A program made the translations under genes and the position numbers. The notes beneath the pieces are model-generated. The model was not told where the DNA came from. It was given only the letters and a program-made list of their open reading frames with translations, and did not search any database. Shown one piece after another: positions 1 through 2,399 of a stretch of 64,000 nt of DNA. The DNA is from Lentibacter algarum (GTDB lineage: Bacteria; Pseudomonadota; Alphaproteobacteria; Rhodobacterales; Rhodobacteraceae), in assembly GCF_018860975.1 (NCBI RefSeq), contig NZ_JAHKQI010000008.1, positions 497,746-561,745 on the forward strand. The letters are read 5' to 3'. Position 1 is the first letter of the stretch, and each line of letters begins with the position of its first letter.

Positions 1-931
1 TTAGAACAGTGTCCACTGGCCCCGTGCTTTCGTGTCGTTCATAGAGAAACTCCGACAGGTCACGCAGAACCCCCAGCCGCCCCTGCGGGCGGAAAAAGCT
101 CATCTCACCAGCTTCTAAATGATGTTCAAAACCCGGCTTTCCGGAGTTCATCAAAAACCAGTTACACATCAGATATTCATGGTAATCATCTTGCGTTGTG
201 GCGGACTTGGTGACCACAAATCTGCCCGCGTGCAGAGACAACCAAGACTGCCAAACCTCAGGAACCGATTGCTCTGCATAGGCAAGCGCGATGCAAACTT
301 CGGCCAAAAGATCTGCGTTTTCATCAATGAAAGCCAGAGTGCCTGTGAACATCAGGCTTTGGACTGCTTCGGCGGGAAGCGATAGGCTTTCTTGCCCATA
401 AGCGCTAAGATAGAAAATGATATGGGTCAGCTCATATGCCGCCTTTTTGTTCGGCAAGCTGAAGGTTTCCTTGCGGCAGATAAACTTGTTAAGTCTTCCC
501 AATAACTCGTTGTTATTGCATATCTTATCTGGAATACGACGCAGCAACAACCGCTGTGCTTCAGCTCGCTGCAGATCAGACAGCTCCGCCTCAACCAACC
601 CTTGATTGTGCACCCACTCGCAGAGTTCTGCACCCCTGTTCCCAGGCATACCAATATCCTCAAGATCAAGGGTTATGGAGAGTAAGAAGCGGTAATACTG
701 CGGGAAAAATTTGAGCTGGTTTTCGACGGTTTCATAAAAGCTATCGTATTGGGCCAGCGCCTCGGCAGACAGGCTTGCACCTGTGCTTTGATGAATGTTG
801 AGAAACTCGGCGTTTTCTTTGAGCCAGAAGACGTCATTCTTTCCGCGCCTATGTGCGGCAAAGCTGGCCGCGAGTGCCTCGGATGAGGACACCGGTTTCG
901 GGCGAAACTGTAGTTGAACAACATTTGTCAT
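1..931 (-). CDS. Hypothetical helical protein, partial (C-terminus off the left edge)
   Basis: An uninterrupted reading frame of 310 codons runs from an ATG at 931 to the left edge with no stop, so the gene is partial. The start is chosen because AGGAG lies about 6 nt upstream. The protein is acidic-to-neutral and reads as alpha-helical, with no signal peptide or membrane segment. Around residues 165-182 is a run reading AYELTHIIFYLSAYG. I have a weak memory of THxxFYL-type motifs in helical DUF proteins near natural-product genes, but cannot verify it, so no function is assigned. It lies 54 bp downstream of the FISGS repeat peptide on the same strand, with a hairpin between, so the two are probably co-transcribed. 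Codon use is less GC-rich than in most neighbours, suggesting an accessory gene. Confidence 0.8.
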   Translation of the reverse strand, partial: MTNVVQLQFRPKPVSSSEALAASFAAHRRGKNDVFWLKENAEFLNIHQSTGASLSAEALAQYDSFYETVENQLKFFPQYYRFLLSITLDLEDIGMPGNRGAELCEWVHNQGLVEAELSDLQRAEAQRLLLRRIPDKICNNNELLGRLNKFICRKETFSLPNKKAAYELTHIIFYLSAYGQESLSLPAEAVQSLMFTGTLAFIDENADLLAEVCIALAYAEQSVPEVWQSWLSLHAGRFVVTKSATTQDDYHEYLMCNWFLMNSGKPGFEHHLEAGEMSFFRPQGRLGVLRDLSEFLYERHESTGPVDTVL

Positions 932-953
932 CACGGCTCCTTTCAGAGAGAGA

Positions 954-977
954 ACGGGCGGAGCAAAGCCCGCCCGT
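954..977 (-). terminator. Intercistronic hairpin between repeat peptide and downstream gene
   Basis: A perfect 8-bp stem (ACGGGCGG / CCGCCCGT) with an 8-nt loop lies just after the stop of the repeat peptide and before the ribosome binding site of the next gene. No clean T-run follows on the minus strand (only a TTCTCTCT stretch), so it may be a leaky terminator or an mRNA-stabilising stem that gives much more of the peptide than of the downstream protein. The role is inferred; the stem is seen. Confidence 0.55.
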
Positions 978-985
978 GATCTGAG

Positions 986-1327
986 TTACGAGCCTGAAAT
1001 AAAGGCTTCTACCGCATCGCCATCTTCTGAGGCGCTGGCGTTGGATGGTGCTGAACCAGAGATAAACAGCTCGGCTCCCGAGCCTGTTTGCATGTCCGAG
1101 CCAGAGGGGGCCGAGCCGGAAATGAACAGGTCGGTGCCGGAGCCTGTGCTCATTTCGGCATCGCTGGGAGACGATCCCGAAATGAACAGATCAGTGCCTG
1201 CACCCGCTGTCATGTCACTGTCTGAAGGGGCTGAACCGGAGATGAAAAGCTCTGTTCCCGCGCCGTCAAAAAGCGTTGTTTCGTGAGTTTCGGTGGTTTG
1301 GATTTGGGTTTTACGAAGTGCAGACAT
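986..1327 (-). CDS. FISGS tandem-repeat peptide (possible multi-core precursor)
   Basis: A 113-residue protein with a strong AGGAGG ribosome binding site 6-8 nt upstream of its ATG. Residues 1-20 form a non-repetitive leader rich in T, K and Q. From residue 21 four copies of a 20-residue unit follow, each containing (D/E)LFISGS then a (A/S)PS linker; FISGS begins at residues 28, 48, 68 and 88. A final shorter copy ends the protein exactly on FISGS at 109-113. There is no cysteine, no hydrophobic signal peptide and no membrane segment. The layout of leader, equal-length repeats separated by a polar linker, and C-terminus at the repeat end resembles multi-core precursors of ribosomally made, modified peptides. 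A secreted or structural repeat peptide is the alternative. It may belong to an existing Rhodobacteraceae-restricted DUF family; I cannot confirm. Confidence 0.8.
   Translation of the reverse strand: MSALRKTQIQTTETHETTLFDGAGTELFISGSAPSDSDMTAGAGTDLFISGSSPSDAEMSTGSGTDLFISGSAPSGSDMQTGSGAELFISGSAPSNASASEDGDAVEAFISGS
989..1267 (-). repeat. 60-bp in-frame tandem repeat, four copies plus a partial
   Basis: The DNA coding for the FISGS units repeats every 60 bp on the minus strand. Copies differ mostly at third codon positions and in the linker (SDSDM, SDAEM, SGSDM, SNASAS), so the protein core is conserved more tightly than the DNA. That pattern suggests selection on the FISGS core rather than a very recent duplication. 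Confidence 0.75.
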
Positions 1328-1416
1328 TGTTACCTCCTAAGTTGTCTGCCTCTTATCGTTATCTACTTGAAGTTGAATGGCAAGAATTATCACACACCTT
1401 TAGGTTGTATTGCCGG

Positions 1417-1433
1417 GTTCAAAAACTTTGAAC
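1417..1433. promoter_or_regulatory. Palindrome upstream of the repeat-peptide gene
   Basis: A perfect inverted repeat, GTTCAAA-AAC-TTTGAAC (7-bp arms, 3-nt spacer), sits about 90 bp upstream of the repeat-peptide start in an AT-rich gap of 292 bp shared with the divergent xth gene. It has the size of a dimeric repressor or activator site. No confident -35/-10 pair could be placed. The rest of the gap (1328-1619) is AT-rich and holds no gene I can support. Confidence 0.4.
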
Positions 1434-1619: not shown

Positions 1620-2399
1620 ATGAAGATCGCGACATTTAACATTAACGGAGTTAAGGCGCGGTTCGAAACCCTTGTGCAATGGCTCCAAGACAGCGCGCCG
1701 GACGTGGCACTTTTGCAAGAGATCAAATCAGTCGATGAGGCCTTTCCGCGAGACGAAATCGAGGCGCTTGGTTATCAGGTTGAAACCCACGGGCAAAAGT
1801 CGTTCAACGGGGTTGCTATCCTTTCCAAACTGCCGCTCGAAGACGTGGTTCGGGGCCTGCCGGGCGATGACGACGACGAGCAAGCGCGCTGGATTGAGGC
1901 GACCGTTATCGGCAAGACGGCTCTGCGGATATGTGGGTTATACTTGCCCAACGGCAACCCTGCTCCGGGGCCGAAATACCTTTATAAACTTGCTTGGATG
2001 GAACGTTTGCACGCGCGCGCTATCGAGCTGCTGGCAGCGGAAGAACCCTTTCTCATGGCGGGAGATTACAACGTGATCCCGCAAGACGAAGACGCCGCAA
2101 CGCCGGAAGTTTGGCACAGCGATGCGTTGGCGATGCCGCAAACACGGCAGGCATTCCGTCAGTTGCTCAACCTTGGTTTTACCGAGGCATTTCGGGCGCA
2201 AACCCAAGGGCCGGAGCACTATAGTTTCTGGGACTATCAAGCAGGTGCTTGGCAACGCAACAACGGCATCCGGATCGACCACTTTTTGCTGAGTCCCGAA
2301 TGCGCAGACCTAATGACCAAATGCGAAATTCAGGCCGAGATGCGCGGGCGCGAAAAGCCCTCTGATCATGTGCCTGTCTGGCTTGAGCTTGACAACTGA
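1620..2399 (+). CDS. xth: Exodeoxyribonuclease III (AP endonuclease)
   Basis: A 259-residue protein of normal length for the Xth branch of the exonuclease III/AP endonuclease family. It cuts DNA 5' to abasic sites and trims 3' ends in base-excision repair in the cytoplasm. Family landmarks are all visible: an N-terminal FNINGVKAR stretch (residues 6-14), LQEIK with the metal-ligand glutamate E34, GDYNV near residue 147, and SDHVPVWLE near the C-terminus with the catalytic histidine H250. AAAGGTAGG lies upstream of the ATG. It stands alone, divergent from the repeat peptide and convergent with pgi. Confidence 0.95.
   Translation: MKIATFNINGVKARFETLVQWLQDSAPDVALLQEIKSVDEAFPRDEIEALGYQVETHGQKSFNGVAILSKLPLEDVVRGLPGDDDDEQARWIEATVIGKTALRICGLYLPNGNPAPGPKYLYKLAWMERLHARAIELLAAEEPFLMAGDYNVIPQDEDAATPEVWHSDALAMPQTRQAFRQLLNLGFTEAFRAQTQGPEHYSFWDYQAGAWQRNNGIRIDHFLLSPECADLMTKCEIQAEMRGREKPSDHVPVWLELDN

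Follow-up and report, generated by a model that had tools for sequence, protein, structure and literature searches.

A tandem-repeat peptide gene paired with a DUF6902 gene in Rhodobacteraceae: a candidate system of ribosomal peptide modification

The repeat peptide gene and its partner in Lentibacter algarum

A 64,000 nucleotide (nt) stretch of Lentibacter algarum contig NZ_JAHKQI010000008.1 (positions 497,746 to 561,745, hereafter the window) opens with two genes on the reverse strand, one encoding a repeat peptide and the other a DUF6902 protein, and this pair is proposed here as a candidate peptide-modifying system (Table 1). An earlier note on this DNA, made from the sequence alone, had described a peptide of 113 residues ending on FISGS, with a ribosome binding site before it and an intercistronic hairpin after it, and all three were recovered. 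It had also described four exact 20-residue units. The units are equal in length but not in sequence, and FISGS occurs five times, at spacings of 20, 20, 20 and 21 residues, the fifth copy lying in a diverged unit. Five different codon sets encode these five copies. Starts resembling the MSALRK of this peptide are frequent across the repeat-peptide family. No Pfam or NCBIfam model exceeded its cut-off for the window peptide or for two peptides from the same genus. Among nine further peptides only that of locus L029 did so (Herpes_UL35, 39.6 vs 25 bits), a match taken as an artefact of the repeats. The intergenic fold of the window reaches -22.2 kcal/mol (z = -2.58), though the signal is weak over the family, with a mean z of only -0.43 across 80 related loci and 9/80 below -2. 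Possibly, the hairpin sets the ratio of peptide to enzyme.

The partner gene starts at ATG 931 or at GTG 934, and in the whole genome encodes 357-358 amino acids (aa). The same-strand protein that had been placed 54 bp downstream of the peptide gene is found there if ATG 931 is used, with GTG 934 as the alternative. Pfam assigns the protein to DUF6902 (PF21843) over the full profile (1-351 of 351, E = 3.2e-135, 451 bits against a gathering cut-off of 27). It also scores above the cut-off of DUF6895 (PF21836; 61.8 vs 23.8 bits, E = 8.7e-17, profile positions 17-240 of 289), and no further Pfam domain was detected in it. The earlier note saw no modifying enzyme in the window; the partner itself is now a candidate.

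Table 1. Features of the repeat peptide locus, in window coordinates
Feature	Position	Strand	Basis
DUF6902 protein, cut by window edge	2..931	-	Pfam; complete gene = L002 17604-18677 (-)
Intercistronic hairpin, no T-run	954..977	-	Fold computation
Repeat peptide gene, precursor candidate, 113 aa	986..1327	-	Open reading frame read, homologues in relatives
FISGS copy 5, C-terminal end of protein	989..1003	-	Sequence
FISGS copy 4	1052..1066	-	Sequence
FISGS copy 3	1112..1126	-	Sequence
FISGS copy 2	1172..1186	-	Sequence
FISGS copy 1	1232..1246	-	Sequence
N-terminal leader-like part, residues 1-21	1265..1327	-	MSALRK start common to FISGS relatives
Shine-Dalgarno AGGAGG, peptide gene	1333..1338	-	Sequence
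Exo_endo_phos gene, exonuclease III-like, xth; divergent conserved flank, outside the system	1620..2399	+	Pfam, locus comparison

Co-occurrence, motif constraint and enzyme residues

DUF6902 was present in 107 of the 394 Rhodobacteraceae genomes sampled, and a sample of the phylum contained it in 4/299 genomes, all four Rhodobacteraceae. A genome contig collection held 338 stretches encoding a DUF6902 relative. The best-scoring 80 of these 338, the named loci, are by that choice closer to the window's enzyme than average, and of the named relatives the nearest belong to Lentibacter (Rhodobacteraceae). A repeat peptide lies upstream of the enzyme gene in 80/80 named loci, at a distance that is usually 27-140 nt and once 343 nt; in 98 other arrays the gap is mostly below 150 nt and reaches ~490 nt in L233. 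The window arrangement is therefore beyond chance, given its five codon sets and its recurrence both in 7/7 genomes of the genus (the window's included) and in all named loci. A profile of the repeat, made from 30 segments, matched 99 of the 394 genomes, 98 of them with the enzyme, while 9 genomes had the enzyme only and 1 no more than a weak peptide match (Fisher's test, p = 8e-81). A closer inspection of the nine enzyme-only genomes revealed a repeat peptide missed by the profile in seven, with the motifs MMCCS, MMSCS, LSPSC, CFSWS, SSTC, STSSF and AQSFS. No repeat peptide was found in the other two, G045 and G294. The total thus comes to 105 of 107 DUF6902 genomes (one genome per genus) with a repeat peptide upstream. 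The sole peptide-only genome, G074, looks like a chance match (E = 0.008, 76% complete, no peptide seen at the xth-erpA locus). These counts (98 genomes with both by search, 105/107 overall) bear out what was first suggested for this locus, namely a peptide resembling a precursor and a partner linked to it, and a short precursor-like gene adjoins a candidate maturase gene with which it co-occurs, as expected of ribosomally synthesised and post-translationally modified peptides (RiPPs). In our judgement it is very probable that the two genes are functionally coupled.

Repeat units take the form G-x5-F-x4 and end in a motif from which few or none of a genome's units deviate. Arrays range from 2 to 20 units; most genomes have one motif throughout, and a few arrays have two or a deviating copy. 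Codons were compared over 80 arrays in 1692 unit pairs at most 90% identical in DNA, the units being chosen without a condition on the motif. Columns +7 to +10 from the unit glycine differed in 1.6-3.9% of pairs, compared with 38.7-80.2% for columns outside the anchor and the motif; the anchor itself, columns 0 and +6, is uninformative here. Where the residues at +7 to +10 were identical, synonymous codons differed in 52.6-61.8%. As synonymous codons have diverged while the residues match, the uniformity of the motif is held by protein-level selection, and not by recent duplication alone.

Between genomes the motif changes as a whole. There are 46 four-residue versions in the 105 genomes, and at least 68 motif changes are needed on a FastTree phylogeny of 147 enzymes (without the truncated rows L105, L170, L234 and L239 and near-duplicates), against a mean of 111.6 over 20 label shuffles. 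FISGS, the conservation of which across species the earlier note had made a test of its own proposal, is not conserved; what is conserved instead is a uniform motif per array and Ser, Thr or Cys at +8. This residue is Ser in 88 genomes, Thr in 11, Cys in 4, Asn in 1 and Ala in 1 (Ser/Thr/Cys in 103/105), and residue +6 is Phe in 97/105. The absence of cysteine remarked on before is true of this species but not beyond it, the motif containing Cys in 20/105 genomes and in 4/7 same-genus arrays. A Cys-dependent type as a general rule was dropped, since the motif is without Cys in 85/105. The last motif copy forms the protein end in 75/80 named loci (exceptions L047, L048, L076, L091 and L113); in FTSWS-like arrays the chain extends 3-8 residues beyond the motif, mostly 5. 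Two motifs within one peptide were observed in L079, L110, L174 and L053 (FSSGS with FSTSC; FTSGS with FTTSA), the first motif standing at the end. Motifs were set by hand for L115, L181, L213 and L221, and read by eye for L196, L209, L218, L229 and the seven peptides missed by the profile.

Fourteen alignment columns are invariant over eight DUF6902 and two DUF6895 proteins, including Y170, L172, T173, H174, D211, E215, Y256 and H257 (numbering of L045). H174 and D211 are substituted in only 2 of 193 enzyme rows, L163 and L168, with one further row gapped there; these two rows are the enzymes of G045 and G294, the genomes in which no peptide was found. The joint change of enzyme and peptide amounts to two events and not to a statistic, and is suggestive. 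The H257 position reads otherwise in L163, L170 and L239, of which L170 and L239 are truncated close to contig ends. Some species recur among the 193 enzyme rows and the 150 arrays, and L047 and L048 are one contig twice. In L105 (Roseovarius litorisediminis) DUF6902 contains an internal stop, while the array is open with one deviating copy, FTFSM; recent decay or a sequencing error are both possible.

A fold model of DUF6902 (predicted local distance difference test 89.9, predicted template modelling score 0.90) predicts a mostly helical protein, apparently nearest to alpha/alpha toroids. By sequence, no relative of solved structure was found at E ≤ 10 with a single sequence, and the best profile match had E = 0.17. 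Two DUF6895 genes were inspected, one alphaproteobacterial (L132 5721-7198) and one on a plasmid of Streptomyces sp. NBC_01243 (L131 8336-9962), and each is directly preceded by a small peptide open reading frame (ORF), of 68 or 78 aa. The two peptides are alike at the N-terminus (E = 1e-4 in a single comparison), and the loci are probably single-copy precursor-maturase pairs. No lasso genes were noted on reading either neighbourhood. By eye, an ORF near the L132 gene resembles part of a 2-oxoglutarate oxygenase.

Gene neighbourhood and upstream regions

The pair sits in a conserved block, with xth in 77/80, erpA in 75/80 and dgt in 74/80 named loci. In the window's genome, DUF6902 is followed by an ORF on the opposite strand and then by an HD-domain gene, which we take to be erpA-like and dgt-like, respectively. 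An EamA-family transporter gene follows DUF6902 in 66/80 loci. The 14 loci without one there include those of Lentibacter, and one of the 14 is on an early-ending contig. The window's genome contains only distant EamA proteins (best 28%), none of them at the locus. The expectation that further partners lie left of position 1 therefore fails for this genome, where the next genes are the erpA-like and dgt-like ones, but would hold for the relatives with EamA. Twelve DUF6902-negative genomes were searched and 11 read, G018 being omitted as its contig begins too close. All 11 keep xth-erpA-dgt, with no match to DUF6902 or EamA in the stretch read. Given its presence in 66/80 loci and this joint absence, EamA is likely a third member of the system in most genomes read, and dispensable in some. 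In the negative loci (L240-L250) the xth-erpA interval is short or holds other ORFs, making it a variable spot in a conserved block.

Upstream regions of the peptide gene were compared over L044-L123. The palindrome GTTCAAAAACTTTGAAC, reported earlier with its 7-bp arms, is present at 1417-1433 of the window, but the corresponding spaced pattern GTTC-N8-10-GAAC occurs in 1/79 upstream regions, against 0.82 expected from shuffles, and no such pattern is visible upstream in L044 and L045, the two closest of the relatives read. LexA-like control was discarded, GTTC-N7-GTTC being found in just 1/79 regions. TGTGGATA/GTGGATAA appears in 32-33/79 regions and TGCAAGCG in 24/79; the former resembles a DnaA box read from the opposite strand. 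No Shine-Dalgarno sequence was recognised in 23/79, and some assigned starts may be wrong.

The candidate was also compared with mobile and defence elements. No relative was found in viral contigs or phage records, and plasmids gave a single weak match in Streptomyces (E = 0.3), which Pfam assigns to DUF6895, so a phage or plasmid origin was rejected. A defence system was likewise rejected, the window peptide and enzyme being without a PADLOC match.

Candidate reaction, alternatives and significance

That DUF6902 is a maturase and the repeat peptide its substrate is, in our judgement, probable. The system as proposed is RiPP-like and would comprise two genes, or three in most relatives read. 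The peptide would be a multi-repeat substrate, a short leader followed by G-x5-F-x4 units, to which DUF6902 would bind as the maturase. The alpha-carbon of the Ser, Thr or Cys at +8 of each unit would then be inverted by two-base catalysis, its alpha-proton being abstracted between two His/carboxylate pairs of DUF6902, as proposed for the unrelated epimerase MslH. The modified chain may be the product in its full length or may be cleaved into short motif peptides, and EamA, where present, would export whichever is formed. We rate the chances as even that this is an undescribed multi-repeat RiPP-like system whose enzyme targets the Ser, Thr or Cys of the repeat, epimerisation being the likeliest reaction; for epimerisation as such, the balance is similarly level.

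The review PMC13352647 cites a paper whose title presents a member of the DUF6895 family as an epimerase that modifies lasso peptides, and DUF6902 resembles DUF6895 proteins in a sequence relation above the Pfam cut-off, in the common His/Asp/Glu and in the small peptide ORF directly upstream at both loci inspected. However, those two peptides show no repeat array, whereas the peptide next to DUF6902 consists of tandem repeats and differs at its N-terminus. For the lasso-peptide epimerase MslH, PMC10406935 proposes two His/Asp pairs and describes a calcineurin-like, Ca-dependent enzyme. Acid/base chemistry with two His/carboxylate pairs, proposed there, would be shared by DUF6902, which is predicted to differ in being mostly helical.

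One observation speaks against a tight fit between enzyme and motif, another against epimerisation. Firstly, no covariation between enzyme and motif was found (three traits, positions up to residue 348); recognition by the enzyme may rest on the leader or on invariant stretches of the unit, and some other factor may keep the motif uniform. Secondly, inversion of the alpha-carbon alone would need no side-chain hydroxyl or thiol, and yet +8 is Ser, Thr or Cys in 103/105 genomes. These three are the residue set of dehydrations and acyl shifts, and the LanC fold is also an alpha/alpha toroid. The maturase may then carry out a non-epimerising reaction, for instance beta-elimination, a different kind of attack on the side chain of Ser, Thr or Cys, or a cut next to this residue. 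We regard this as the foremost alternative, if an unlikely one, as DUF6902 is related to a family to which the cited title ascribes an epimerase and contains no other Pfam domain.

The peptide could instead serve a structural role or assemble, whether at the surface, in a matrix or as a filament inside the cell, with DUF6902 as a modifying or folding helper. A need for repeats to match each other would explain a motif uniform within and free between genomes, and the at least 68 changes on the enzyme tree, the lack of covariation and arrays of up to 20 units all suit such a role. No signal peptide was noticed in the N-termini (by eye, no predictor used) and some arrays are as short as 2-4 units, and we hold this to be improbable. 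Finally, although the conserved xth, erpA and dgt flanks place the pair at a fixed locus, it is very improbable that the genes are mere neighbours kept by vertical descent with no direct biochemical link, since 11/11 negative genomes keep the flanks without the enzyme and EamA, both His/Asp-substituted enzymes come from genomes where no peptide was found, and the motif is constrained despite codon divergence.

Multi-core or multi-copy precursors are known from cyanobactins, dikaritins and yeast alpha-factor. The peptides described here share with multi-core RiPP and multi-copy pheromone precursors a leader followed by equal repeats, with conserved cores repeated in one precursor and the last copy mostly at the protein end. 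Unlike in multi-core RiPPs, no known RiPP enzyme class was recognised at the locus and the whole motif switches between species. No processing protease was recognised on reading the locus (no genome-wide search was made), and neither a Lan synthetase nor lasso B and C maturation proteins were seen when the neighbouring genes were read (no search aimed at either was made). In the openly accessible literature, most subscription journals not being covered, no description of a Rhodobacteraceae repeat-peptide system was found, and both DUF names occurred together only in the review PMC13352647.

Tentatively, and with more doubt than for the reaction itself, these genes may represent a new RiPP class, confined to Rhodobacteraceae as sampled, in which a stand-alone alpha/alpha-toroid epimerase would invert each Ser, Thr or Cys of a species-specific tandem array and EamA would export a product with multiple D-residues that is each species' own. 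A motif that is peculiar to a species and repeated identically many times is consistent with a dose-amplified peptide, for example a signal, or with a homotypically assembling chain. The pattern of motifs uniform within and variable between arrays raises a testable question, namely what recognises the motif. If DUF6902 is a peptide epimerase, the 46 motifs in 105 genomes would be a natural substrate-scope library for D-residues in ribosomal peptides. For the Rhodobacteraceae, a simple family-wide ribosomal peptide system would be added, with a single candidate enzyme encoded at 338 loci of one genome collection.
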